Shown in pieces: positions 1,541 through 16,406 of a stretch of 64,000 bases of DNA. The stretch lies in assembly GCF_014926585.1 (NCBI RefSeq), contig NZ_CP045422.1, positions 310,001 through 374,000 on the forward strand, written 5' to 3'. Numbering within the stretch: position 1 is the stretch's first letter; each line of letters opens with the position of its first letter. Under the pieces are notes generated by a model that was not told where the DNA came from, did not search any database, and saw only the letters and a program-made list of their open reading frames with translations. Origin of the DNA: Devosia beringensis. Its GTDB lineage: Bacteria > Pseudomonadota > Alphaproteobacteria > Rhizobiales > Devosiaceae. The position numbers were made by a program, and so were the translations under genes.

Positions 1541-2095
1541 TCAGGGCGCGTCGCGGTCGGCGGCCTGCAGCAAAGCCAGCACATAGGGGGCGAAAGAGCG
1601 CCAGACCTCGAGACGGAAGGCCTCGGGTCCGGTGCGCCAGAGCACGATCTCGGCCTTTTCGAAGATGGTGCGGGTGACCATGCCGGTGGGAAAAGCCGCC
1701 TGTGACAGGTCGAGCGGCACGCCGGCATTGAGCACGGCGGCGGCTTTGGCGCCTTCGATCAGCAGCGCCGTCTGGCGGTGCGAGACGTCCACCAGTGCGC
1801 CGGCAATGCCGTCCAGCGCGGCCGTGAGCGCCCGATAGAGCGCGGCGGTTTCCGTGGCCGGGGCCAGCAGCAGAAACTCATCGGGGCCGAGCCAGAGGGC
1901 GGAGCGATCCCCGGCCGTGGCGGAAGTCAGCGGGCGGCTGGGAATGGCCAGGCCAAAGGCGGCGCCCACGGCCGCCGTCGCGTCCGCGCCGCGCAGCACG
2001 AAGCGGGCGGATGGCGCGGCCGGGGTCAGTGTCACATTGATTGCGGGGATGGCGATGGGCAGGCTGCCGGTGCGGGCTGAGCTGAGGTCAAGCAT
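1541..2095 (-). CDS. soxG: Sarcosine oxidase gamma subunit
   Basis: 184-residue gamma subunit of heterotetrameric sarcosine oxidase, which converts sarcosine plus O2 and tetrahydrofolate to glycine, H2O2 and methylene-tetrahydrofolate. It has the WLGPDEFLLLAP and DVSHRQTALLIEG segments typical of this GcvT-like family. The ATG overlaps the soxA stop by 8 bases. An open frame extends further upstream but only as a shadow of soxA. It is the last gene of the long minus-strand operon that starts at gbcA. Confidence 0.93.
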   Translation of the reverse strand: MLDLSSARTGSLPIAIPAINVTLTPAAPSARFVLRGADATAAVGAAFGLAIPSRPLTSATAGDRSALWLGPDEFLLLAPATETAALYRALTAALDGIAGALVDVSHRQTALLIEGAKAAAVLNAGVPLDLSQAAFPTGMVTRTIFEKAEIVLWRTGPEAFRLEVWRSFAPYVLALLQAADRDAP

Positions 2096-5048
2096 TGATG
2101 CGGCCCCCTTCCTTGTCAAAGAAGATCGGTTCGGTGACGGTGACGGCGATGCCGCCCTGGGGCATGGGGACATGGAGGGTTGTGCCCAGCCGTTCCTTGC
2201 CGCTGGCGACCAGGGCCATGGCGATCGAGCGGCCCAGCGTCTCGCTCCAATAGGAGGACGTGACGTGGCCCAGAGCCGGCGTGCCGGTCTTGGGTGAGGC
2301 TTCAAGGGTGATCTGAGCGCCCTCCTCCAGCACGATCTTGGGATCGGCCGTGAGCAGGCCGACCAGGTGCTTGCGGTCGGGCTTGAGCAGGTCGGACCGG
2401 CGCAGCGAGCGCTTGCCGACAAAATCGGCCTTGGTCTTGCCGATGGCCCAGTCGAGCGCCAGGTCGGATGGCGTCACCGTGCCGTCGGTCTCCTGGCCGA
2501 TGATGATGTAACCCTTTTCGGCGCGCAGCACGTGCATGGTTTCGGTGCCATAGGGCGTGAGCCCGTGCGGGGCGCCGGCGGCGTGAATGGCTTCCCAGAC
2601 GGCGCGGCCGTAATCGGCCGGGACGTTGACCTCGAAACCCAGCTCGCCGGTGAAGCTGACGCGGAACAGCCGTATCGGGACGCCCAGAATGGTGCCCTCG
2701 CGCAGGCTCATATGCGGCAGAGCCTCGTTGGACATGTCCACGCCCTCGACCAGCGGCGCCAGGATCTCGCGGGCCTTGGGCCCCTGGATGGCGATGACGG
2801 CCCATTGCTCGGTGGTGGAGGTCAACCAGACCTTGAGCTCGGGGAACTCTGTCTGCAGATAATCCTCCATATGCGCCAGCACGCGGGGGGCGCCGCCGGT
2901 GGTGGTGGTCACGTGAAAACGATCGGCGGCCAGGCGGCCGATGACGCCATCGTCCATGACAAAGCCGGCCTCGTTGAGCATCAGGCCATAGCGGCAGCGG
3001 CCGATACCCAGCTTCTGCCAGGGATTGGTATAGAGCCGTTCCATGAAGGTAGCGGCGTCGGGGCCGACGACCTCGATCTTGCCCAGGGTAGTGGCGTCGA
3101 AGAGGCCAGCCGACGTGCGGGCGGCGCGGCATTCGCGGTTGACGGCGGCGTGCATGTCCTCGCCGTCTTTTGGGAAATACCAGGCGCGCTTCCACTGCCC
3201 AACATCCTCGAACACGGCGCCATTGGCGGCGGCCCAGGGATGGATCGGGGTTTGGCGAACCGGATCAAGCAGTTGGCCGCGGGCATGGCCGGCCAGGGTG
3301 CCGAAGGTGACCGGGGTGAAGGGCGGGCGGAAGGTGGTGAGGCCGATATCGGGGATGGGCTTGTCGAGCTCGGCCGAGGCGATGGCGAGGCCATTCATGT
3401 TGGAGGTCTTGCCCTGATCGGTGGCCATGCCGGTGGTGGTGTAGCGCTTGATATGCTCGATGGAATGCATGCCCTCGCGCACGGCCAGCTTGATGTCCTT
3501 GGCGGTAACGTCGTTCTGGAAATCGACGAAGGCCTTGATTTTGCTCAGGTCCTGCGTGGTCGGCACGGCGCCGTGGAAACCGCCGGACGGGGCGATGGCG
3601 CTCGTGGCGTGGTATTGCCTGGTCCCGTCGGCGCCTTCGTTTAGGGCGGCGGTGAGATCGAAAGTGCCGTTGCAGGCGCCGGCCGAGCGGGCCGCCTGGG
3701 CAGAGATGCCGGGGAGGTAGATCTGCCGGGCGGCATCATAGGTCAGCTTGCCGCGCGACTGGGAGAAGAGGTGCACGGCCGGAGTCCAGCCGCCCGCCAT
3801 CAGCACCAGATCGCAGTCGGCCTGGTGAAGATTGGTGAGCACACTGTTAGCATCGAGTGTCCCCAATTGAACGCCGGTGACGCGCTGGCGGCCAGAAACG
3901 GCGTTGATTGCCAATGAATTAGCCATGGGGAGGCCAGCCGCCTTGGCGGCAGCATAGCCGGGACCTTCCGCTTTGGGGCGCAGGTCGGCGATCATGGCGA
4001 TGGCGACGCCCGCCTGATGCAGATCGAGCGCGGCGGCATAGCCGGTATCGTCGGCGGTAAAGACCACGGCGCGGTTGCCGGGCAGAACGCCGTAGCGGTT
4101 AGTATAGGTCCGCGCGGCCGAGGCGAGCATAATGCCGGGGCGGTCATTGTCGGGGAAAACCAGCGGGCGCTCGATGGCGCCTGTGGCGAGGACCACTTGC
4201 TTGGCACGCACCTTCCACAGGCGCTCACGCGGCTGACCCGCCGACGGCGCGGCCAGGTGATCGGTGAGGCGCTCGGCCAAGCCGAGCAGGTTCTGCGCGT
4301 AATACCCGAAGGCCTGGGTGCGCGGCAGCAGGGTGACATTGGCCATCGACGCCAGGCGGGCCAGCGTCATCGCCAGCCAGTCGGCAGCGGGGACGCCATC
4401 GATCAAAGCATGGCGCTCGTCGAGCAGGCCACCGCCGAGCTCGGCCTGTTCATCGGCCAGCATGACCGAGGCGCCGGTTTCGGCCGCGGCCAGGGCTGCG
4501 GCGAGGCCGGCAGCGCCGGCGCCCACCACCAGCACGTCGCAATGGGCATATTGCTGGGCATAGTGGTCAGGGTCGGCGACTTTGGGCGCCTTGCCGAGGC
4601 CGGCGGTGCGCCGGATGGCCGGCTCGTAGAGCTTGTGCCAGAGCGTAAAGGGCCACATGAAGGTCTTGTAGTAAAAGCCGGCGCCGAGCAGGCCGGCGGG
4701 GGCCAGATCGTTGACCTCGAGCAGATCGAAGCCCAGCGAGGGCCAATGGTTCTGGCTGCGCGCGACAAGGCCCTCATAGAGTTCGACCTGGGTGGCGCGC
4801 AGGTTGGGCGCCGAGCGACCCTTGCCGCGATCGATATCGACCAGGGCATTGGGCTCTTCCGAGCCGGCAGCGAGGAAGCCACGCGGGCGGTGATATTTGA
4901 ACGAGCGGCCCACGAGGTGGACGCCATTGGCGAGCAGCGCCGAGGCGAGCGTATCGCCCTCGACACCCTGTAGGGCCCTGCCGTCAAAGGTGAAATTGAT
5001 GGTCTTGCCTCGATTGACGCGGCCGCCGGAAGGGATCCGCATGGTCAT
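2088..5048 (-). CDS. soxA: Sarcosine oxidase alpha subunit
   Basis: 986-residue alpha subunit. An N-terminal ferredoxin-like fold (residues about 15-60, with FKYHRPRG) is followed by a Rossmann dinucleotide site, VLVVGAGAAGLAAALAAAE, at about 172-190, and by a C-terminal GcvT-like folate-binding half (about 600-980). This is the usual domain order and length. NAD binding, electron transfer from the beta subunit and folate-dependent capture of the methyl-derived carbon are known for the family. The start overlaps the soxD stop as ATGA; a second in-frame ATG two codons later is possible. Gene order soxB-soxD-soxA-soxG is conserved. Confidence 0.97.
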   Translation of the reverse strand: MTMRIPSGGRVNRGKTINFTFDGRALQGVEGDTLASALLANGVHLVGRSFKYHRPRGFLAAGSEEPNALVDIDRGKGRSAPNLRATQVELYEGLVARSQNHWPSLGFDLLEVNDLAPAGLLGAGFYYKTFMWPFTLWHKLYEPAIRRTAGLGKAPKVADPDHYAQQYAHCDVLVVGAGAAGLAAALAAAETGASVMLADEQAELGGGLLDERHALIDGVPAADWLAMTLARLASMANVTLLPRTQAFGYYAQNLLGLAERLTDHLAAPSAGQPRERLWKVRAKQVVLATGAIERPLVFPDNDRPGIMLASAARTYTNRYGVLPGNRAVVFTADDTGYAAALDLHQAGVAIAMIADLRPKAEGPGYAAAKAAGLPMANSLAINAVSGRQRVTGVQLGTLDANSVLTNLHQADCDLVLMAGGWTPAVHLFSQSRGKLTYDAARQIYLPGISAQAARSAGACNGTFDLTAALNEGADGTRQYHATSAIAPSGGFHGAVPTTQDLSKIKAFVDFQNDVTAKDIKLAVREGMHSIEHIKRYTTTGMATDQGKTSNMNGLAIASAELDKPIPDIGLTTFRPPFTPVTFGTLAGHARGQLLDPVRQTPIHPWAAANGAVFEDVGQWKRAWYFPKDGEDMHAAVNRECRAARTSAGLFDATTLGKIEVVGPDAATFMERLYTNPWQKLGIGRCRYGLMLNEAGFVMDDGVIGRLAADRFHVTTTTGGAPRVLAHMEDYLQTEFPELKVWLTSTTEQWAVIAIQGPKAREILAPLVEGVDMSNEALPHMSLREGTILGVPIRLFRVSFTGELGFEVNVPADYGRAVWEAIHAAGAPHGLTPYGTETMHVLRAEKGYIIIGQETDGTVTPSDLALDWAIGKTKADFVGKRSLRRSDLLKPDRKHLVGLLTADPKIVLEEGAQITLEASPKTGTPALGHVTSSYWSETLGRSIAMALVASGKERLGTTLHVPMPQGGIAVTVTEPIFFDKEGGRINA

Positions 5049-5340: not shown

Positions 5341-6591
5341 TTAATGCGCGACGGCGGCGGCGGCGGCTTCATCGATCAGCCGGCCAGTGCGGAAGCGGTC
5401 GAGCGTGAAGGGCGCAGCGATCTTGTGGGGTTCGCCGGTGGCGACGGTGTGGGCAAAGACATTGCCCGAGCCTGGCGTGGCCTTGAAGCCACCGGTGCCC
5501 CAGCCGCAATTGACGAACAGGCCCGGCACCGGCGTCTTGCCGATGATCGGCGAGCGATCGGGGGTGACGTCGACAATGCCGCCCCAATTGCGCAGCATGC
5601 GCAGGCGGCGGACGGTGGGGAAGAGCTCGCAAATGGCTTCGAGCGTGTGGGTGGCGATATGGAGCGCTCCGGTCTGCGAGTAGGACGTGTAGGCGTCGGT
5701 GCCGGCGCCGATGACCAGCTCGCCCTTGTCGGACTGGGACATATAGGCGTGGATGGTATTGCTCATGACGACGCAGGGCATGATGGGCTTGATCGGCTCG
5801 GAGACCAAAGCCTGCAGCGGATAGGATTCGAGCGGCATGGAGACACCGGCCATTGCCATCAGCACGCTGGTATGGCCGGCAGCAACCACGCCGACGCGTT
5901 TGGTGGCGACCGGGCCGCGCGTGGTTTCGAGGCCAGTGACGGCGCCATCAATGCCGCGGGTAATGCCCTTGACCTCGCAGTTCTGGATGATGTCGACGCC
6001 CATGGCCGAGGCAGCGCGGGCATAGCCCCAGGCCACGGCATCGTGCCGGGCGGTGCCGCCGCGGCGCTGCAGCGCGGCGCCAATGATGGGATAGCGCACA
6101 TCGGGGTCGATATTGAGGATCGGGCAGAAATCCTGCGCCTGCTGCGCCGTCAGCCATTCATTGTCGATGCCGGCAAGGCGGTTGGCATGGACGTGGCGCT
6201 TGAACACCTGCACGTCATGGATGTTGTGCGCCAGCATCATCACGCCGCGCGGGGAATACATGACGTTGTAATTGAGCTCGAGGCTGAGGTTCTGCCACAG
6301 CTTCATGGCGTGCTCATACATCGCTTCGGACTCTTCCCAGAGGTAGTTGGAGCGGATGATGGTGGTGTTGCGCCCGGTATTGCCGCCGCCCAGCCAGCCC
6401 TTTTCCAGCACGGCGATGTTTCTCATCCCGTGTTCCTTGGCCATGTAATAGGCGGCGGCCAAGCCATGGCCACCGGCGCCGACAATGATGGCGTCGTAGC
6501 TGGCCTTCAGTTCGGGCTGGCGCCATTGCTCGGGCCAGCCGCTATTGCCGGTCAGCGCTTGCTTGAGCAGGTTGGGGAAGGAAAAGCGCAT
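5341..6591 (-). CDS. soxB: Sarcosine oxidase beta subunit
   Basis: 416-residue flavoprotein that oxidises sarcosine. The FAD dinucleotide motif AIIVGAGGHGLAAAYY is at residues 35-50. The RRGGTARHDAVAWGY segment carries the His (about 183) that holds covalent FMN in characterised homologues. The ATG giving MRFSFPNLLKQAL was chosen because homologues begin this way and a GGTGA sequence precedes it. A GTG 12 bases upstream overlaps the etf stop and cannot be excluded. Sarcosine would be delivered by the dimethylglycine demethylase encoded just upstream. Confidence 0.96.
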   Translation of the reverse strand: MRFSFPNLLKQALTGNSGWPEQWRQPELKASYDAIIVGAGGHGLAAAYYMAKEHGMRNIAVLEKGWLGGGNTGRNTTIIRSNYLWEESEAMYEHAMKLWQNLSLELNYNVMYSPRGVMMLAHNIHDVQVFKRHVHANRLAGIDNEWLTAQQAQDFCPILNIDPDVRYPIIGAALQRRGGTARHDAVAWGYARAASAMGVDIIQNCEVKGITRGIDGAVTGLETTRGPVATKRVGVVAAGHTSVLMAMAGVSMPLESYPLQALVSEPIKPIMPCVVMSNTIHAYMSQSDKGELVIGAGTDAYTSYSQTGALHIATHTLEAICELFPTVRRLRMLRNWGGIVDVTPDRSPIIGKTPVPGLFVNCGWGTGGFKATPGSGNVFAHTVATGEPHKIAAPFTLDRFRTGRLIDEAAAAAVAH

Positions 6592-6599
6592 GTTGGGGG

Positions 6600-8537
6600 T
6601 CACCAGTCGATCAGGTTATGGGTGCGAAGATAGGCCAGGATCGCCTGGGCCTTGTCGGCGGGAGAGCCGGTCGCGATGACCGCCCCGCCCCTGGTTTCGG
6701 CCACGATGGCCGAGAGCATGCGGGCATGGCCGGTCTTTTGGTCTTTGGCCTTGAATTTTACCGGGCGTTTGGCCGGCTCGAGGCGCCAGGCGGTGTCGAG
6801 CGCCGGTGTGGCAGTCGGCTCGTGCTGGACCACCTGCCCCGCCGTGCGGCGGGCAAAGGCGTAAAACGGGGTCACCGGCGCCCTTGGATCAACGGCGATC
6901 ACCGCCGGCAGGCGCACGCGGACATGGCGGCGCTGGCCCTTGGGCAAAGCCTGGGTGATGTCGGCATGGCCGTCACTGACCGTCACGGCGATGGCCTGGG
7001 TGACGACGGGCCAGCCAAGGCGTTCGGCCACCAGATAGGGCACGAGGCCGGAGCCCTCGCCGCCCTCGGCACGGCTGCCGGTGAGGATGAGGTCATGGCC
7101 AGCGGCCTGGGCGACGAGGGCCTCGGCAATGTCCTGGCCGGGGACGGCCGGCACGACGTCAATTGTGGTGGCGCCATAGGCGAGATAGTCGCCGATCGCG
7201 GCTTCGTCCGGATTGCCGGCATGCAGCATTGTGGTCTCGCCCAGGCCGCGTGCCATTTCCAGCGCCAGCAGATCATCGCGATTGGGGCGGGCGGCGCCGT
7301 TGACGGGGTTGCGGCCGAGGGATGCGAGGACGAGGACGCGGGGGTTGGCCAGGTCGGGTGTTGGGGCACGCCCCCTCCTAACATCCCCCTGCAAGGGGGC
7401 GGGACCGGCCGGTGTCTGGGGCGGCATGGCGTTGGCGTCGTCGGCAAAATTGCGCCCCCGGGTGGCCGCCAGCAGTTCGGTCATCACCGCTTGGGCGTCG
7501 TCGACCAGGGTGAGATCGGCGCGGCCGGCGATCGGGGCGCTGGCATCGGTGTTGATGGCGATGACGTGGCGCACCGCCTTGATGCCCTGCAGGTGCTGCA
7601 CGGCGCCGGAAATGCCCAAGGCGAGATAGACGCTGGCGCTGACCGTCTTGCCGGTGGCGCCGACCTGCTGCTCGCGGGTGAAGCGGCCATCGTCGACGGC
7701 GACGCGGCTGGCGCCGATGGCGGCGTCGAAGGTTCTGGCCAATGCCAACACACTGGGCACGTCGGTGACCCCATTGCCGGCGGCGACGATGAAATCGGCC
7801 TCTTCGAGACCCAGACGAGTGGCATCGACCGGCGGGGTGCCGCGATCGGCATAGAGGCTTGCGGTCGGCTGCGGGGCGTCGAGCGGGGTGAGCATGCCGG
7901 CGCCGCGGAAGGGCAAGACGGTATCGGTGGTATCAGCATCGAGCAGGATGAGGCGTGGCAGGTCGCGCCGCGCCAGTTGCGCGCCGCCCTGGCGATAGGT
8001 GGCGACGGCGTCGGGGCGGAGCTCGACGACATGGGCGGCTGTCGCGGCCCCGAGCCGCGCGGCCAGACGGCGGCCGAGATCGCCGGTGCCAATGGCGGTA
8101 TCGGGCAAAATGATGTGGCGCGGGTCGAGACGGGCGATGAGGTCGGTTGCCACCGCGAGGTCGCGGTCGGGTTGGAACAGGGTGCCGTCGCAGGCTGGGG
8201 CCACGTGGACCTGGTCGGCGCCCGGCGCGGCCAAATCCTCGGTCAGCTCGCCGAGGACGAGTACGGCCACGGCGGTCGCCGGATCGGCCAGCAGCGCCGC
8301 GGCGGCGATAGCCTGGTGCGCCTGGGCGTCGAGGCTACCGCGGCTGCTGTGGGCGATGACGAGGATGTGGGCCTGTGGCGCGCCGAGCAGGCGCAGCGGC
8401 TTGGGGGCGTCAGCGCGATGGGTGGCGAGGTGGACGGCGCCGCCCTGCCCGGCTTCGCCCAGCACGATGCGTTTCAGGCCCTCGGCGGTGACGCTGAAGG
8501 GCCGGCGCGGATTGATGCGGGCAATTGTGTCGCTCAT
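6600..8537 (-). CDS. Electron transfer flavoprotein, fused alpha-beta polypeptide
   Basis: 645 residues. The first ~372 form an EtfA, ending in its FAD domain (VVAAGNGVTDVPS-like start, then REQQVGATGKTVS, ALGISGAVQHLQG and AINTDASAPI). The last ~249, from ANPRVLVLASLG at about 397, form an EtfB (NRDDLLALEMA, LILTGSRAEGGEGSG). Related betaine loci, such as the dgc region of Pseudomonas aeruginosa, have two separate genes. The ~18-residue linker is encoded by a GC-rich palindromic repeat, and no in-frame ATG or GTG restarts EtfB. Expected role: carry electrons from DgcA to DgcB. It overlaps dgcB by four bases. A sequencing-level join is possible but the frame is clean. Confidence 0.88.
   Translation of the reverse strand: MSDTIARINPRRPFSVTAEGLKRIVLGEAGQGGAVHLATHRADAPKPLRLLGAPQAHILVIAHSSRGSLDAQAHQAIAAAALLADPATAVAVLVLGELTEDLAAPGADQVHVAPACDGTLFQPDRDLAVATDLIARLDPRHIILPDTAIGTGDLGRRLAARLGAATAAHVVELRPDAVATYRQGGAQLARRDLPRLILLDADTTDTVLPFRGAGMLTPLDAPQPTASLYADRGTPPVDATRLGLEEADFIVAAGNGVTDVPSVLALARTFDAAIGASRVAVDDGRFTREQQVGATGKTVSASVYLALGISGAVQHLQGIKAVRHVIAINTDASAPIAGRADLTLVDDAQAVMTELLAATRGRNFADDANAMPPQTPAGPAPLQGDVRRGRAPTPDLANPRVLVLASLGRNPVNGAARPNRDDLLALEMARGLGETTMLHAGNPDEAAIGDYLAYGATTIDVVPAVPGQDIAEALVAQAAGHDLILTGSRAEGGEGSGLVPYLVAERLGWPVVTQAIAVTVSDGHADITQALPKGQRRHVRVRLPAVIAVDPRAPVTPFYAFARRTAGQVVQHEPTATPALDTAWRLEPAKRPVKFKAKDQKTGHARMLSAIVAETRGGAVIATGSPADKAQAILAYLRTHNLIDW
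7364..7400. repeat. GC-rich palindromic repeat inside the ETF fusion
   Basis: A short palindromic element lies exactly at the EtfA-EtfB junction. Its core is CCCCCT, a 3-base GCA loop and AGGGGG (7385-7399), flanked on the left by a GC-rich GCACGCCCCCTCCTAACAT segment. It resembles the small C-rich/G-rich palindromes common between rhizobial genes (family comparison from memory). Read on the minus strand it stays open in the gene frame and encodes the proline/arginine-rich linker at about residues 379-392. Confidence 0.65.
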
Positions 8538-10423
8538 GCCGGCACCGGCAGGCTCTGGGCGACGAGTTCGGCGATGTCGAGCACTTCGGGGCGCTCACCC
8601 ACCACGCCTTCGAGCATGGCGGTGCATTGCGGGCAGCCGACGGCGACGATGCCGGCGCCGGTGGCGCGGGCGTCATTGATGCGGATATCAGGGATGCGCT
8701 GCCTGCCGGGAATGTCGGTCAGTGGGGCACCGCCGCCGCCGCCGCAGCAGCGGCCGCGCAGGCCGGAGCGTTCCATTTCCCTGATCTCGATACCGATGCC
8801 TGCGAGCAGGTCGCGCGGCGCCTGGATCTCGCCATTGTAGCGGCCGAGATAACAGGGATCGTGCCAGGTGACGGCGCGCCGGTCGGGCGTCGGCCCGAGC
8901 TTGAGCTGGCCGGATTTGGCGAGTTGGGCCAGCAGCGTCGAGTGATGCAGCACGGTGAAGTGGCCGCCCAAAGCCGGATAGTCGTTCTTGAGGCTGTTGA
9001 GCACGTGCGGATCGGGCGTGACGATGCGCGTGAAGCTGAAGCGGGCCAGATTGGCGATGGTGCGCTGCGCCAAAGACTGGAAGGTGGCCTCGTCGCCCAG
9101 GCGCCTTGCGGTGTCGCCGGTGTCGAACTCGCTGTCGGCCAGCACGGCAAAGTCGATATTGGCGGCGCGCAGGGATTTGACCAGAGCCCGCAGCGTGCGC
9201 TGGTAGCGCATGTCGAAGGCGCCCTCGCCCACCACCAGCAGCACGTCGATTGGCTGGCCCGGGCGGGCATGCGGCACGTCGAGATCGACGGCCCAGTGCT
9301 GGCGGGTGGTGATGTCATGGCCGCCCACGGTGGCGGTTTCGCGCAGATTGGCCAGGGTCTCGGGTGCCTTGCCGGGCAGCGCGCCGGTGGTGAGGGTGAT
9401 GTTGCGGCGCAGGTCGACAATGGCGTCAACATGCTCGATCAGCATCGGGCATTCCTCGACGCAGGCGCGGCAGGTGGTGCAGGAAAAGAGGGTTTCCGGC
9501 TCGATGAGGAAGGGCACGATGGGCTGGTCGGGCGCGCCGGCATGGGTGCCGAGCGGAATGCCCGGATAGGGACTGCCGGCGAAATGGGCATCGCTGCCGG
9601 TTGCCATGCCGACCACCAGGTCCTGGATCAGCTTTTTGGGGTTGAGCGGCTGGCCGGCGGCGAAGGCGGGGCACGCGTCCTCGCACTTGCCGCATTGCAC
9701 GCAGGCGTCAAAGCTCAGCAGCTGGTTCCAGCGGAAGTCCGCGGGCTTTGAGACGCCATAGTCGGCGGCCTCGAGGTCGAGCGGCCGCAGGCCGACGGAG
9801 CGCTCGACGAAACGCTGCTGGCGCGGGTGGAAGCCCAGATGCAGCAGGCCGGCGACCGCGTGCTTCATCGGGCCACCTGCGCCGATGCCGAGCGCCAATT
9901 CGGCCGAACCCAGGATCAACAGCAGCAGGAGTGTCAAAGCAAAGGCGGCTGTCATGGCCGAGGCCGGGACCATGGCCACCAGGGTAAGACCGATCAGGGC
10001 GAGGGCAAAGGCGGCCAGGGTATAGGGCAGCCGCGACCATGGCCCTTTTGACAGGCGGGAAGGCGGGGAGCGGCGGCGCAGCCAGACGAAAAGGCTACCG
10101 GCGAGCATGACGGCGGCCGCGGCCAGGATCAGCCAATCGAGCCAAGGCTGGTAGAGCATCAGGCCATAGTTGAGCGCGACCAGCACCAAAGCGGCCACGG
10201 CGCCGCCGGCAACGGCCATATGGGTGTTGGCGATATAGCTGTCGCGGGCGACGACGTGGTGGATGTCGACCAGGTAGCGTTTGGGAATGGCAAGCAGCCC
10301 GGCCCAGTCGGTCGGGGCGTCACGGCCATTGCGCCATAAGGCGACGCGCCGGAGCAGCCCGGTGCCCAGGGTGGCGACGGCCACCCAGAACACGAGTGTG
10401 ACGGCGAGCTGGACCCAGAGCAT
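8534..10423 (-). CDS. dgcB: Dimethylglycine demethylation Fe-S membrane protein
   Basis: 629-residue protein with several N-terminal hydrophobic helices (to about residue 190), two ferredoxin-type cluster motifs (CVQCGKCEDACP near 240 and CTTCRACVEECP near 315) and a C-terminal cysteine-rich CCG region (DPCYLGRYNGE and RCCGGGGG near 554). This is the HdrD/GlpC-like architecture of DgcB, which is needed with DgcA for dimethylglycine to sarcosine conversion in Pseudomonas. It probably passes electrons from ETF to membrane quinone (inference). It lies 3 bases after dgcA and overlaps the etf fusion. Confidence 0.93.
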   Translation of the reverse strand: MLWVQLAVTLVFWVAVATLGTGLLRRVALWRNGRDAPTDWAGLLAIPKRYLVDIHHVVARDSYIANTHMAVAGGAVAALVLVALNYGLMLYQPWLDWLILAAAAVMLAGSLFVWLRRRSPPSRLSKGPWSRLPYTLAAFALALIGLTLVAMVPASAMTAAFALTLLLLLILGSAELALGIGAGGPMKHAVAGLLHLGFHPRQQRFVERSVGLRPLDLEAADYGVSKPADFRWNQLLSFDACVQCGKCEDACPAFAAGQPLNPKKLIQDLVVGMATGSDAHFAGSPYPGIPLGTHAGAPDQPIVPFLIEPETLFSCTTCRACVEECPMLIEHVDAIVDLRRNITLTTGALPGKAPETLANLRETATVGGHDITTRQHWAVDLDVPHARPGQPIDVLLVVGEGAFDMRYQRTLRALVKSLRAANIDFAVLADSEFDTGDTARRLGDEATFQSLAQRTIANLARFSFTRIVTPDPHVLNSLKNDYPALGGHFTVLHHSTLLAQLAKSGQLKLGPTPDRRAVTWHDPCYLGRYNGEIQAPRDLLAGIGIEIREMERSGLRGRCCGGGGGAPLTDIPGRQRIPDIRINDARATGAGIVAVGCPQCTAMLEGVVGERPEVLDIAELVAQSLPVPA

Positions 10424-10426
10424 GGC

Positions 10427-12493
10427 TCAGAAGTCCTTGCAGAGGCGCAGGGCGTCATAGATGGCGCCGTGGATATTGTGCTGAGAGATGCAGTCGCCGA
10501 CGCGAAACAACAGGAACTTGTCGCCGGAGAGGTCTTCGCTCAGCGATGGCTGCGGCTCGGCGGCAAAGAGGCTGGCATTGTCGGTCTGGCCGAAATTGAC
10601 CGCGCGTTCCTTGAGGTCCCAGTAGAGACCGTCATTGGGCAGGATGCCGTTTTCGATCACCACCTGGTCGACGACACGCTCTTCGAGCGCCTCGGTATAT
10701 TCGTTACGCAGCACGGCGATCAGCTTGTCGCCCTCGCGATAGACGCGGTCGAGCCAGTAGTTCGGCGTCATCACCACATCCCGTGCGTAGAGGCGGCGGT
10801 AGAAGATCGGGAAAGTGGTGCCGCCGACGTCGTCGGCGACCTTGACGTCGGGGGTGACGATTTCGACCGTGCTGCCGCGGGTGGCGAGGAAGTCGGCGGT
10901 ACCTGAACCAGAATGGGCGCTGATCACGTCATAGACGAGAACGTTCTGGCCGGGGGCGACCTTGCCGGAGAGGATATCCCAGGCGCTGACCGACAGGCCC
11001 TGGTCAAAACCCCAGCCTGCCACCTGCCCCATATTGGAGCTGCCGCCGGTGGCGAGGACGACGATGTCGGGGTTTTCGGCCAGGATCATGTCCGCGCTGG
11101 CCTCGGTGCCGAGGCGGCGATCGACGCCGAGCCGCCTGGTTTCCATGTCGAACCAGCGGACGATGCCGGCCATCTGCTCGCGCTGCGGGGCCTTTGCGGC
11201 GAGATTGATCTGGCCGCCGACGGCGTCGGCTTTTTCAAACAGCACCACGTCATGGCCGCGTGAGCGGGCGACGCGGGCGGCTTCGAGGCCCCCCGGCCCG
11301 CCGCCGACCACGACGACCTTGCGCTTGGGGCCGGTCGATTTGGTGATGATATGCGGCATGGTGGCTTCGCGGGAGGTCGCCGCGTTCTGCACGCAGAGCA
11401 CGTCGAGGCCATTATACTGGCGGTCGATGCAGTAATTGGCGCCGACGCATTGCTTGATCTCGTCCTCGCGCCCGTCCCGGATCTTTTCCACCATATGCGG
11501 GTCGGCGATCTGGGCGCGGGTCATGCCGACCAGATCGATCATGCCGGCGGCGAGCAGGCGCTCGGCCTGGCCGGCGTCGCGGATCGACTGGGCGTGCATG
11601 ACCGGGATATCGAGCACGGACTTGATGCCGGCGGCCAGGTGCACGAAGGGCTCGGGCGGCAGCGCCATGGGCGGCATGCAATTGGCCAGAGTATTGTGCG
11701 TGTCGGCGCCCGAGCCGACGACGGAGATGTAGTCGATCAGCCTGGTCTCGCCCATGGCATGGGCGATTTCCTTGAGGGTCTCGTGGTCGAGCCCGTCCTC
11801 GTGGAATTCGTCGCCACACATGCGCAGGCCAACGACGAAGTCGGGGCCGACAGCCTCGCGCACCTCATGGAGCACTTCGCGGCCGAAGCGCATGCGGTTT
11901 TCCAGGCTCCCGCCCCATTCGTCGGTGCGGAAATTGGAGCGCGGGCTCCAGAACTGGTCGATCAGGTGCTGATGAGCCGCCGAGATCTCGATGCCATCCA
12001 TGCCGGCGGCCTGGACGCGTTTGGCGGCGACGCCGAAGTCCTTGATGATACGCCTGATTTCCTCGATCTCGATGATCTTGGCATTGCCGCGATGCACCGG
12101 CTCGCGAATGCCCGAGGGGGTCATCAGATGCGGCCAGTTTTCGCCGTGAAAGGCATTGCGGCGGCCCATATGCGTGGCCTGGATCATGATCTTGGCGCCA
12201 TGGCGATGCATGGTCTCGGCCAGGCGCGCCAGCGGGTCGATGATGCGGTCATTGCTGAGATTGACCGACTTCCACCAGCCCTGGGGGCTGTCGATGGAAA
12301 CGGGGCTCGAGCCGCCGCAGATCGCCAGGCCGACGCCGCCTTTGGCCTTTTCCTCGTAGTAGCGGATGTAGCGATCCCCGGGCAGGCCACCGGGCTCGGC
12401 ATAGACCTCGGCATGCGCCGTCGAGACGACGCGGTTGCGCAGGGTCAGCTTGTTGAGCGTGATCGGGGCGAGCAGATGGGGATAGGATGCCAT
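10427..12493 (-). CDS. dgcA: Dimethylglycine demethylase flavoprotein (TMADH family)
   Basis: 688 residues. An N-terminal old-yellow-enzyme FMN barrel (LLAPITLNKLTLRNRVV near the start) is followed by a 4Fe-4S cysteine cluster around residue 347 (CVGANYC, then a later CVQNAA) and a dinucleotide-binding half beginning VVVVGGGPGGLEAARVA near 392. This is the trimethylamine-dehydrogenase layout. The context (gbcAB upstream, dgcB, ETF and sox downstream) supports N-demethylation of dimethylglycine to sarcosine. The ATG chosen (MASYPHLLAP) overlaps the previous stop as TAATG; the frame upstream of it is shadow. Confidence 0.94.
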   Translation of the reverse strand: MASYPHLLAPITLNKLTLRNRVVSTAHAEVYAEPGGLPGDRYIRYYEEKAKGGVGLAICGGSSPVSIDSPQGWWKSVNLSNDRIIDPLARLAETMHRHGAKIMIQATHMGRRNAFHGENWPHLMTPSGIREPVHRGNAKIIEIEEIRRIIKDFGVAAKRVQAAGMDGIEISAAHQHLIDQFWSPRSNFRTDEWGGSLENRMRFGREVLHEVREAVGPDFVVGLRMCGDEFHEDGLDHETLKEIAHAMGETRLIDYISVVGSGADTHNTLANCMPPMALPPEPFVHLAAGIKSVLDIPVMHAQSIRDAGQAERLLAAGMIDLVGMTRAQIADPHMVEKIRDGREDEIKQCVGANYCIDRQYNGLDVLCVQNAATSREATMPHIITKSTGPKRKVVVVGGGPGGLEAARVARSRGHDVVLFEKADAVGGQINLAAKAPQREQMAGIVRWFDMETRRLGVDRRLGTEASADMILAENPDIVVLATGGSSNMGQVAGWGFDQGLSVSAWDILSGKVAPGQNVLVYDVISAHSGSGTADFLATRGSTVEIVTPDVKVADDVGGTTFPIFYRRLYARDVVMTPNYWLDRVYREGDKLIAVLRNEYTEALEERVVDQVVIENGILPNDGLYWDLKERAVNFGQTDNASLFAAEPQPSLSEDLSGDKFLLFRVGDCISQHNIHGAIYDALRLCKDF

Positions 12494-13017
12494 TACGCCG
12501 CCTTGGGACTGACGCTGAAGATGCAGTGCTCGTGGCCTTCGGCGGCGCACTGGGTCTCGCGGCTCACCGTCTGGTAGCTGTTACCGGAATCCTGGCCGAC
12601 CCAATCCATGGCGCCGGCGAACCAGCCCTCGAACATGTAGCAGAGCTTGCCCGAGACACCGGGCTGCTGCAGCACGAAGGAGGAGTGGCGAAGCGCAATC
12701 TGGGCGTTACCGGTTTCGACATCGGCCGAGACGAAGCTGAACAGGCCCCAGCCGCGCTGCGACAGGCGTTTGAGATAATGCTCGAACACGGCGAGGCCCG
12801 TCAGGCCATGCGTCGCCGCTTCCTTTTCGCACCAGAAATAAGCCGACTTGTAGCCGGCCGGGTAGAGGATTTCGGCGTACTTCTCCCGGCCAAGCGCGGC
12901 TTCCACCGCGAGATGGTTGTTGGTGAAGAAGTGGCGCGGCACATAGAGCATGGGCAGACCGTCGGTGGTCCATACGCCGGTCTCGTCATCGACTGCGATG
13001 GGCAGTTGCGGACCCAT
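12493..13017 (-). CDS. V4R-domain protein of the betaine operon (DUF5943 type)
   Basis: 174-residue protein that keeps company with dgcA in betaine loci (PA5397-like). The C-terminal half looks like a V4R small-molecule-binding domain: GKLCYMFEGWFAGAMDW near 123-139 and a closing CAAEGHEHC (C157, C165). Its biochemical role is not known to me. The ATG was chosen because it overlaps the dipeptidase-like stop as TGATG; a GTG four codons earlier is in frame. Co-translation with the M19-like protein upstream suggests the two act together, possibly on a pathway-linked small molecule (inference). Confidence 0.85.
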   Translation of the reverse strand: MGPQLPIAVDDETGVWTTDGLPMLYVPRHFFTNNHLAVEAALGREKYAEILYPAGYKSAYFWCEKEAATHGLTGLAVFEHYLKRLSQRGWGLFSFVSADVETGNAQIALRHSSFVLQQPGVSGKLCYMFEGWFAGAMDWVGQDSGNSYQTVSRETQCAAEGHEHCIFSVSPKAA

Positions 13018-13988
13018 CAGGCGCCCCACACGGTCTTGAAGGTGCGCAGCCAGTTGCCGCCAATGGTCTTTTGGATTTTCTCGGTGCTCCAGCCGGCCGC
13101 TTCCATGGCGGCGGTCAGGTTCGGCCAGTCGCCGATCTTGCGCATGCCTTCGGGGTTCTGCACGGTGCCGAAATCGGTGAGGCGGCGATGGCGGCCCTTG
13201 TCATGGGTGATCCAGTCGAAGAACGGTCGGTCATAGCCCTGGGTGAAGTCGGTGCCGACGCCGACATTGTCCCAGCCGACGATGTCACCGATGTAATCAA
13301 GCGCCTCGACATAATCGACGACGGTGGCATCGGTGCCGCGTTTGAGGAAGGGCGGGAACATGGTGACGCCGACAAAGCCGCCATGGTCGGCGATGAACCT
13401 GAGCTGTTCGTCGGTCTTGTTGCGCGGATGCTCCTTGAGCCCCATGGGCAGGCAGTGCGAATAGGTGACGGGCTTCTTGGAGGCCAGAATGGTCTCTTCA
13501 GAGGTCTTGGGGCCGACATGGCTGAGATCGACCAGGATGCCGGTCCGGTTCATTTCGGCGACGACCTCGTGGCCATAGCCGGACAGGCCCCCGTCCCGCT
13601 CGTAGCAGCCGGTGCCGATCAGGTTCTGCGTGTTGTAGCAGAGCTGGACGACACGCACGCCCATGTCCCAGAAGGCTTCGATATAGCCCAGATTGTCCTC
13701 GAAGGCGGCGGCGTTCTGGAAGCCCAGGATAATGCCGGTCTTGTTGTCCTTTTTGGCCTGCTCGATATCGGCCGTGGTGCGGATGAGGGTCAGGATATCG
13801 CTGTTGTCGCGAATGGCCTGCTTCATGGTGGCGATATTGTCGACGGTGGCCTGGAAGCCCTCCCAGACCGAGACCGTGCAATTGGCGGCGGAAATGCCGC
13901 CCTTGCGCATGTCCTCGAAGACCGAGCGGTCCCATTTGGAGATGATGAGGCCATCGATGACCAGGCTTTGACTGTGGAGCGCGCTCAA
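13017..13988 (-). CDS. M19 membrane-dipeptidase-like protein, metal site degenerate
   Basis: 323-residue renal-dipeptidase (M19) family member in the same place as PA5396 of the Pseudomonas betaine cluster. The family fold is clear: LVIDG at the start, GVRVVQLCYNTQN, LVDLSHVG (H157), TYSHCLPM (H178), EHPRNKTDE and GVGTDF (D247). The usual HxD metal ligands after IDG are Leu14 and Ile16 here, and the usual metal-bridging Glu appears to be Gln91. Ordinary dipeptidase activity is therefore doubtful. It starts with TTG after GGGGGATA; no better start is seen. It is probably an accessory enzyme of betaine or one-carbon metabolism. Confidence 0.85.
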   Translation of the reverse strand: MSALHSQSLVIDGLIISKWDRSVFEDMRKGGISAANCTVSVWEGFQATVDNIATMKQAIRDNSDILTLIRTTADIEQAKKDNKTGIILGFQNAAAFEDNLGYIEAFWDMGVRVVQLCYNTQNLIGTGCYERDGGLSGYGHEVVAEMNRTGILVDLSHVGPKTSEETILASKKPVTYSHCLPMGLKEHPRNKTDEQLRFIADHGGFVGVTMFPPFLKRGTDATVVDYVEALDYIGDIVGWDNVGVGTDFTQGYDRPFFDWITHDKGRHRRLTDFGTVQNPEGMRKIGDWPNLTAAMEAAGWSTEKIQKTIGGNWLRTFKTVWGA

Positions 13989-14019: not shown

Positions 14020-15153
14020 TTATCGTTCGATCACCAGGTCGCTGGTGGGTTTGGAGCAGCACAGCAGCACCATGCCGGCGTCGATCTCGCGCTGGCGGAT
14101 GCCGCCCTGGTGGCTCATGTCCACCGTGCCGGAGAGCTTTTTTGACTTGCAGGTGCCGCACATGCCCTGGGTGCAGGACGAGGGCAGCCGCATGCCGGCG
14201 CGCTTGGCGGCCTCGAGCACGGTCATGTTCTCGGGCACGTCGATGGCGCGGCGGGTCTTGGTGAATTCGACCTTGAAGGTCTTCACCTCTGGCGCGGCTT
14301 CGAGCATGGCCTCGCCCAGAACGACATCTGCCTGAACCGGCTCGGATAGCGCCTCGAAGTTGAAACTCTCTTCGTGATAATGCGCCATGTCGAAGCCGGA
14401 TTTGATCAGCAGGTCGCGTACTGCCGCCATATAGGGGGCCGGACCGCAAACAAAGATCTCGCGTGTGCGGAAATCGGGCGCGATCATTTCGAGCATCGGC
14501 GCCGAGAGGCGACCACGCAGCCCGAAGGTGGGCGACAGCGGGGTGATACCTTCGACGATGGGAATGAAGCGGAAATTGACGCTGAGCCGGCTCATCAATT
14601 CGAGCTCTTCGCGGAAGATGATATCGGCAGGCGTGCGTGCATTATGGACGAAGATGATGTCTTCCTGCTCGCCCAGATCGTGGAAGGTCCGCGACATCGA
14701 CATCAGCGGGGTGATGCCGCTGCCGCCCGACAGGAAGAGGTAGCGGGGCGCCGGATGGGCGTAACAGGTGAAGGCACCCATCGGTCCCAGTGCCTTGAGC
14801 TGCATGCCCGGCACCAGATTGTCGTGCAGCCAGTTGGAGACCGGCCCACCGGGCACCCGCTTGACCGTGATTGAGAAGGTGTCCGGACGGGTCGGCGACG
14901 ACGAGATGGTGTAGCAGCGGTTGATGATCTCGCCGCCGATCTCGAAGGCATAGGTCATAAACTGGCCGGGCTGGAATCGCATGCGTCGAGGCAAGACGGG
15001 CCGCAGCACAAAGGTCTTGACGTCCGGGGTCTCCTGCCGGACGGCCTGACAGATCAGCGCGTCGTCATTCTCGCTGTCCCATAGCTCATCGGGCAGCCGG
15101 AGGGCTGGGGCCGTCTCGTCATGGGGGCCAAAGCCGCCTTCAAGAACCTTCAT
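14020..15153 (-). CDS. gbcB: Glycine betaine monooxygenase reductase subunit
   Basis: 377-residue ferredoxin reductase. The flavin site INRCYTISSSP is followed by an NAD-binding region (LFLSGGSGITPLMSM) and a C-terminal plant-type 2Fe-2S domain with SSCTQGMCGTC and a later CC near residue 321 onward. It feeds NAD(P)H electrons to the Rieske oxygenase GbcA, which removes one methyl of glycine betaine as formaldehyde, giving dimethylglycine. The ATG overlaps the gbcA stop by four bases. A longer frame upstream reads into gbcA and was rejected. Confidence 0.94.
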   Translation of the reverse strand: MKVLEGGFGPHDETAPALRLPDELWDSENDDALICQAVRQETPDVKTFVLRPVLPRRMRFQPGQFMTYAFEIGGEIINRCYTISSSPTRPDTFSITVKRVPGGPVSNWLHDNLVPGMQLKALGPMGAFTCYAHPAPRYLFLSGGSGITPLMSMSRTFHDLGEQEDIIFVHNARTPADIIFREELELMSRLSVNFRFIPIVEGITPLSPTFGLRGRLSAPMLEMIAPDFRTREIFVCGPAPYMAAVRDLLIKSGFDMAHYHEESFNFEALSEPVQADVVLGEAMLEAAPEVKTFKVEFTKTRRAIDVPENMTVLEAAKRAGMRLPSSCTQGMCGTCKSKKLSGTVDMSHQGGIRQREIDAGMVLLCCSKPTSDLVIER

Positions 15154-16406
15154 GCGCCGACATGCTCGGCCATGCGGCCGATATACCAACGGACGAATTT
15201 TTCGACCAGCATCTCGGTATTGGGCGAATAGGGACCGGGCTCATAGGCCGGGTTCTCGGCACCGCGCTGGCACATCTCGACCAGGGCCGCGTCCTGCAGA
15301 TTGGTAGCAGTCCAGACCTCGATGAGATTGGCGAGGTCGTAGTCGACGCCCTCGACGGCATCCTTGTTGACCAGCCATTTGGTGCGCACCAAGGTGCGGC
15401 CAGCATCGAGCGGAAATACGGCGAAGGTGACGATGTGGTCGCCGAGGAAATGGTGCCAGGAATTGGGCTGGGTCCAGAAGCTCAGGCCACCCAGCTTGGC
15501 ATTGGTAAAGGCGCCCAGCGGCAGGCGGCAGGCGGCGCGAGTGTCCATGGTATGGCTTTCGCCATTGCCGTCGAGCGGCAGGCGCTCGGTGCGGAAGCCG
15601 GTGACGCGGCTGTCGAGCTCATCGATCTCGCGCGAGGGCAGGCCCATGGCCTCCCATTCCGTGTGGCTGACCTGGCGCAGCGCCTCGTAGCGCTGGGCAT
15701 TGGCGAGATCGATGGGGTCCATCTCCTCGGGGGCAAAGCCGAAGCCATAGGCAAACAGCGGCACCGTCAGTTCGGGATGATTGGCCTCGCAGTGATAGCA
15801 CTCGCGATTGTTCTCCAGCGTCAGCTTCCAGTTACCCATTTCGATCAGGTCGCTCTGATAGGCGATCTTGGTCTCGCGCACCTTGTGCGGGGCGATATAG
15901 GGGCCCATGCGGGCGGCCATGTCGTCGAAATCCTCGGGAGGATCATCGGAAAGGCAGATGAACAGCAGCCCCTCGAGCGAGCGCAGGTTGACCGGCTTCA
16001 ATCCCTTGCAGGAGCGGTCGAAATCGGCACCCATATGGGGCGCATGCACCAGGTCGCCGTCGAGATTGTAGGTCCAGGAATGGTAGCGACAGACCAGGTT
16101 GCCCACCGTGGTCTTTTCGTCGTCGATCAGCCTGGCGCCGCGATGGCGGCAGACATTGTGGAAAGCTTTGACGGCGTTGTCGTCGTCGCGGACGATGAGA
16201 ATGGAACTGGGACCGATGTCGATGGTCATGACATCGCCCGGCTCGGGCACATCGGGCTCGACGCCAACATAGATCCAGTGGCGGGAGAAGATCGCGTCCA
16301 TATCCGCCGCGAAGACTTCGGGCGAGGTATAGAAGGGGGCATCGAGACTATGTCCCGGCTGGCGGCCCTGCAGCAGCGCATGTAGATACGAAGCCTTGTC
16401 CAGCAT
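15150..16406 (-). CDS. gbcA: Glycine betaine monooxygenase, Rieske oxygenase subunit
   Basis: 418-residue ring-hydroxylating-type oxygenase alpha subunit. Rieske ligands are visible as CRHRGARL near 86 and CRYHSWTY near 106. The mononuclear-iron segment reads NNRECYHCEANHPEL. Together with GbcB it oxidatively demethylates betaine. It is the first gene of the minus-strand operon, with a strong GAGGAGAGG ribosome site, and faces the GbdR-like regulator across 139 bases, so that gap should carry the operon promoter. Confidence 0.95.
   Translation of the reverse strand: MLDKASYLHALLQGRQPGHSLDAPFYTSPEVFAADMDAIFSRHWIYVGVEPDVPEPGDVMTIDIGPSSILIVRDDDNAVKAFHNVCRHRGARLIDDEKTTVGNLVCRYHSWTYNLDGDLVHAPHMGADFDRSCKGLKPVNLRSLEGLLFICLSDDPPEDFDDMAARMGPYIAPHKVRETKIAYQSDLIEMGNWKLTLENNRECYHCEANHPELTVPLFAYGFGFAPEEMDPIDLANAQRYEALRQVSHTEWEAMGLPSREIDELDSRVTGFRTERLPLDGNGESHTMDTRAACRLPLGAFTNAKLGGLSFWTQPNSWHHFLGDHIVTFAVFPLDAGRTLVRTKWLVNKDAVEGVDYDLANLIEVWTATNLQDAALVEMCQRGAENPAYEPGPYSPNTEMLVEKFVRWYIGRMAEHVGA

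Follow-up and report, generated by a model that had tools for sequence, protein, structure and literature searches.

In some archaeal electron transfer flavoproteins (ETFs), the alpha and beta subunits are fused on one chain. The unfused EtfA and EtfB of dgc clusters (e.g., G131, Kaistia defluvii L042, and Paraburkholderia eburnea L043) share gene order and partners with the locus described here; in G131, the subunits are 71% (etfA) and 68% (etfB) identical to the fusion, with lower values in L042 and L043. They differ in being encoded by two genes in different frames, whereas our locus has a single frame. Electron transfer from ETF to DgcB is suggested in the available text of PMC13083937. 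Small palindromic repeats that also occur between genes can be translated in frame within genes, as described for Rickettsia palindromic elements and for repeat units of enterobacteria; in one case, a stop codon seems to have been lost to such a repeat, lengthening the protein (available parts of PMC2229807 and PMC2759123). REP elements are palindromes of 20 to 40 bp that occur in many copies (available part of PMC3733652).

The window analyzed here is a 64-kb stretch (64,000 nucleotides) of the Devosia beringensis genome. It contains a fused etfA-etfB gene that starts with ATG and runs for 645 codons without an internal stop (Table 1). Pfam matches above cut-off comprise PF01012 (ETF) in two stretches and PF00766 (ETF_alpha) at residues 244 to 320, which give an alpha subunit with an ETF domain and a C-terminal FAD-binding domain. 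The NCBIfam ETF alpha model matches residues 5 to 359 with 235.7 bits, below its curated cut-off of 600, and the ETF beta model matches residues 401 to 641 with 176.3 bits, below its cut-off of 350. The beta part is nearly full length, with model positions 3 to 251 of 254 matched (E = 7.9e-52, at a score below the naming cut-off). Both ends of the gene overlap their neighbors by 4 nt, dgcB at the start and the soxB-like gene at the stop. A conserved N-terminal RINPRRP motif precedes the ETF domain (window positions 8478 to 8537, residues 1 to 20); its R7 and R11 do not vary across 82 sequences. Elsewhere in the genome, a second ETF alpha (G000:C1:853547-854455) is 34% identical.

Table 1. Features of the window around the fused ETF gene
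Feature	Position	Strand	Basis and remarks
Sarcosine oxidase alpha family gene	2088..5048	minus	TIGR01372 above cut-off
Sarcosine oxidase beta family gene (soxB-like)	5341..6603	minus	TIGR01373 above cut-off; overlaps the stop of the fused gene by 4 nt
Fused etfA-etfB gene, 645 aa plus stop	6600..8537	minus	ORF list, Pfam, NCBIfam
Beta part, residues 401-645	6603..7337	minus	NCBIfam match, alignment, beta-half protein search
Linker, residues 365-400	7338..7445	minus	Alignment of homologues
Diverged unit of dispersed palindromic repeat	7369..7415	plus	Covariance model, E = 1.2e-5 in own genome; codes about residues 375-390
Alpha part, residues 1-364	7446..8537	minus	Domain matches, alignment of homologues
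dgcB-like gene	8534..10423	minus	DUF3483, 4Fe-4S, and CCG domains; shares 4 nt with the fused gene
dgcA-like gene	10427..12493	minus	Oxidored_FMN plus NAD(P)-binding domain
M19 dipeptidase	13017..13988	minus	Pfam; near dgcA in 20/21 relatives too
gbcB-like reductase and gbcA-like oxygenase	14020..16406	minus	Best NCBIfam matches, both below curated cut-offs

The fused gene sits in a gbc-dgc-sox cluster for betaine/dimethylglycine demethylation, in which the dgcA, dgcB, and ETF genes are adjacent according to the ORF list and Pfam; the dgc and gbc labels denote homology, and the gbc models matched below their cut-offs. The longest ORF of the dgcA-like gene begins with a GTG at 12550, an ATG lies at 12493, and the interval used in the tests was 10430-12502. 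The order M19, dgcA, dgcB, etfA is kept in 20 of 21 relatives. The run dgcA-dgcB-etfA is present in all 21, with etfB falling under the threshold in one (L058), and gbcA or gbcB lies within the stretch examined in 18 of them. Between G131 and our genome, DgcA and M19 are each 95% identical and SoxB is 91% identical. In this comparison (window 6603-12502 against L072), EtfA and EtfB have diverged much more rapidly than DgcA, with which they are partnered.

Protein searches found the same architecture elsewhere. The best nonself match, P0002, comes from another source and shows 90% identity across all 645 residues, and P0003 to P0009 and P0011 cover the whole query at 58 to 74% identity; the fusion is therefore not due to chance or a local error. 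Full-length fusions form ten clusters, our own included, and two of them (P0004 and P0011) are named as Devosia sp. Among the nine sister fusions, the two halves are conserved alike (alpha, 68 to 91%; beta, 66 to 90%), and the linker is far less conserved (18 to 36%, but 72% in P0002). The 645-codon EtfA-EtfB frame is thereby confirmed as a genuine fusion. That it reflects an error of sequencing or assembly, or a gene in decay, is hardly credible, given a single-contig genome of 4.05 Mb that is 99.8% complete, the same-length homologue P0002 from another source, and the even conservation of alpha and beta, although P0010, among the homologues, has the appearance of a frameshift artefact. P0010 was rejected as an eleventh fusion, as its alpha C terminus is out of frame and its linker is unlike the repeat described below. 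It is a metagenome protein and likely a false fusion, in which a frameshift near the alpha end joined otherwise overlapping genes. The other 74 genomes of the genus gave no match to the fused protein at E ≤ 1e-40, and 136 genomes of the family, our own included, gave two matches at E ≤ 1e-60, our own and the unfused G131.

In unfused relatives, etfA and etfB are separate and in different frames in all 24 distinct loci read (21 plus L206, L209, and L210; L208 is the same record as L042, and the distant matches L062 and L063 as well as G499 were left out of the junction count). A 4-nt overlap with the start codon inside it (ATGA or GTGA) joins the genes in 16 of 21 unfused loci. In the others, where as throughout the etfB starts are candidate starts and not annotations, the overlap is 1 nt (L046), the nearest etfB start lies 8 nt (L042) or 14 nt (L058) before the etfA end, or it lies 113 nt past that end (L060 and L061). 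G131 (identical to P0015), the closest of the unfused relatives whose DNA was read, has separate genes with an intact GTGA stop/start overlap. Alignment shows that unfused P0012 to P0015 end in short tails, as do other unfused ones; P0012 to P0014 are known as proteins and were scored as unfused from their protein ends. Because etfA and etfB occupy different frames, loss of the stop alone would not fuse the genes, and a net frame change is needed as well. An earlier note on this DNA had read the locus as one 645-residue frame holding alpha and beta (which the lack of internal stops and the PF01012, PF00766, and NCBIfam ETF beta matches bear out), had taken it for a natural fusion in a betaine demethylation cluster, and had held that comparable loci encode two proteins; the ten fusion clusters and the 24 two-gene loci agree with both statements. 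It had regarded a stop and restart in close relatives, together with an indel in the raw reads, as telling against the fusion. The former does exist, as GTGA in G131, but the close full-length fusions from other sources argue against a sequencing indel.

That account was incomplete in that it overlooked the likeness of the linker to a palindromic repeat. About half of the 36-residue linker is encoded by a diverged unit of this repeat, and a profile HMM match extends beyond the unit (7371-7459, E = 3.2e-9) to include, less certainly, the spacer of the repeat. The profile, which was built from 37 other units, five of them from our genome, found no second place in the window below E = 0.1 (next best, E = 0.19), and the reversed control of the window gave no match up to E = 10. 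A strict search of the window with 27 junction bases matched only its own place, and when 101 bases from the junction were searched against the genome at the nucleotide level, nothing but the query's own place rose above noise (next, E = 0.355). When compared with six-frame translations of the 37 repeat units, 9 of 11 linkers (our own and P0010 included) outscored all 200 composition shuffles; the exceptions were P0005, equalled by 3 of 200, and P0010, equalled by 102 of 200, and the margins were narrow for P0007, P0008, and P0009 (best scores of 49, 42, and 45 versus shuffle maxima of 46, 41, and 42). Random DNA from the same loci scored below the repeats for every linker except that of P0010. 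The repeat content of the nine sister fusions was judged from protein sequence, the DNA being that of our own copy only. By eye, the linkers hold repeat units in both orientations and in more than one frame, with several units in P0006 and P0011, and several linkers among P0003 to P0007 have a common layout of VDT/VDS, forward unit, spacer, and reverse unit. Much of the linker, as judged by these sequence comparisons, thus resembles, in translated form, a small repeat that usually lies between genes. A special mRNA structure at the linker was rejected, since the region folds worse than its shuffles (z = +1.95; all 200 at least as stable), and no known RNA family reached its gathering score at 7000-7800.

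The repeat is widespread in this and related genomes. A relaxed pattern, CCTAACNTCCCCCN{2,14}GGGGG, occurs at six places in our genome, the fusion copy included, and the relaxed palindrome pattern was found in 54 of 75 genus genomes, with a reversed control of 0 throughout. The covariance model, with which 150 of 802 first-look candidates were scored, recovered at least 36 units in our genome at E < 0.01, and the fusion copy ranked 22nd among those scored. Nine convergent repeat pairs, 66 to 68 bp apart, are present among the 36 units (e.g., G000:C1:197408-197521). By a codon-usage test that recognized 70 of 70 positions in known genes, these being its own training genes, the fusion copy is the only one inside a gene among the 30 best units of our genome. 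The same test placed none of the units from same-genus genomes inside a gene (0/32 and 0/65, i.e., 0/97), the units tested being the first listed and not a random draw, and the set of 65 coming from six genomes with shorter flanks and a looser threshold. The repeat is thus a coding palindromic repeat, dispersed and mostly intergenic, with one copy that is read in frame as part of a conserved gene. The REP-associated tyrosine transposase (Y1_Tnp) is present in 3 of 75 genus genomes; none was found in our genome, for which RAYT was accordingly rejected as the mover of the repeat.

We propose that the fused gene encodes a single-chain ETF that shuttles electrons from DgcA to DgcB and that was probably born of a repeat insertion at the etfA/etfB junction. 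In the ancestor, etfA and etfB would have occupied different frames, as a rule overlapping by 4 nt, and insertion of a repeat at the stop/start could delete the stop and put beta in frame in one step. About half of the linker would then derive from the repeat unit and the remainder partly from the repeat's spacer. The product would be a one-chain ETF that serves dimethylglycine demethylation. Its alpha and beta parts may fold like an ordinary ETF heterodimer tied by roughly 36 poorly conserved linker residues, and, judging from the protein families, electrons would pass from DgcA to the ETF FAD, to the iron-sulfur protein DgcB, and on to quinone. We infer that the insertion itself made the fusion, that one chain accumulates, and that the electron path leads from DgcA to DgcB. 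A fixed 1:1 stoichiometry in the cell and a tethering of the shuttle between DgcA and DgcB, both suggested in the earlier note, are conjectural. The linker is a tie of beta to alpha, not of the ETF to its partners.

The long frame might be translated while the working beta is also, or only, a separate protein, produced by internal initiation or by proteolysis of the linker. The linker does contain in-frame start codons (ATG at residue 371 and TTG at residue 382), and residues 327 to 395 have very low confidence in the AlphaFold model, which may reflect either disorder or poor modelling in a single-chain model that is weak overall (mean pLDDT, 60; pTM, 0.35). We consider this improbable, however. 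No Shine-Dalgarno-like stretch was seen by eye before either start, and no ATG, GTG, or TTG falls within residues 383 to 420, around the former start of beta; with the common start codons lost from this region and no ribosome-binding site ahead of the linker starts, a separately made beta is unlikely, and the fusion has been kept in ten clusters.

The phylogeny bears on whether the repeat caused the fusion or arrived later. In the EtfA tree, fused and unfused proteins interleave, with at least four changes in the Devosia-type group, two of them forced by starred branches. A single clade of the ten fusions was rejected marginally (AU p = 0.038). A single ancestral fusion by an ordinary indel, with a linker that later gathered repeats as passengers and unfused sisters that represent reversions or recombination, would account for the common layout seen by eye in several linkers of P0003 to P0007, and one clade is not rejected once P0011 is omitted (p = 0.179). 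Four members of the second fusion group, described below, also have palindromes inside alpha, away from the junction. This scenario is nevertheless rather unlikely, as unfused P0012 to P0015 have short tails and P0015 retains the GTGA overlap, unfused P0014 is the sister of fused P0011 on a starred branch, and, of the ten linkers that are not artefacts, nine score above every shuffle and the tenth above all except 3 of 200. Insertion of the repeat at the junction remains our preferred origin for the Devosia-type fusion.

A second group of ETF fusions emerged from an order-wide search of 397 genomes, of which seven had a match at E ≤ 1e-50, one of them a fusion (G252, 42%). Searching with the beta half of the G252 fusion retrieved 16 clusters, its own included, of 534 to 935 aa (P0121 to P0136; P0121 and P0124 have no N terminus), in which EtfA and EtfB are in one frame with alpha first (G252 locus, L207) and which are 34 to 37% identical to our protein, P0001 (13 of 16 clusters). 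The first beta-half protein search, with 8,000 candidates scored, had returned only the 11 Devosia-type clusters and missed this group, so the homologue searches are not exhaustive. Placing both fusion groups in one clade was rejected (AU p = 2.5e-5), and the present trees indicate that the second group arose separately from the Devosia-type group. The earlier note knew of no such fusion in this pathway: the fusion it described is real, but it is not unique. The second group may also have changed more than once, because the unfused ETF of G218 falls inside it, with weak support. Repeat-derived linkers were rejected for this group (15 tested; none beat all shuffles, the best being 4/200), and a fusion therefore needs no repeat. 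When 13 alpha-internal regions of the group were compared with translated palindromes (nine units from G252 and G218), only those of P0123, P0125, P0126, and P0127 outscored each of their 200 shuffles. The G252 palindrome had 144 matches versus 1 in the control, and the G252 contig starts inside a translated palindrome copy in alpha (L207:1-30). The contig does not extend to dgcA or dgcB; the unfused G218, of the same family as G252, has the whole cluster, with M19 absent. Members of the second group have a longer N terminus, with RPRRDPRAE-like motifs, often twice, where RINPRRP stands in our protein.

Dimethylglycine-type ETFs have thus acquired a covalent alpha-beta link more than once. As a tentative generalization, palindromic intergenic repeats might serve as ready-made in-frame linkers, and the etfA/etfB junction of these ETFs might be a repeated hot spot for them, beside fusions that are free of repeats. 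The second fusion group is likewise one chain with alpha first, and it differs from the present one in its separate origin and in linkers that are not repeat-like. The locus offers a route from operon to fusion protein that is concrete and can be tested, and sisters of both kinds, fused and unfused, are available for comparison. In the available text of the open-licence literature, no report was found of an ETF fusion like this one or of an ETF linker made from a repeat. Like REP elements, the repeat is a small multicopy palindrome, here in a genome without a REP-associated transposase. The Rickettsia and enterobacterial repeats, as described in the available parts of PMC2229807 and PMC2759123, include none that joins two neighboring subunit genes, unlike the case here. 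Translated palindromic repeats were known before as insertions in proteins or as tails; here, a repeat seems to make up a large part of the connection between alpha and beta in a respiratory electron carrier, at an insertion site where frame reset and stop deletion could occur at once.
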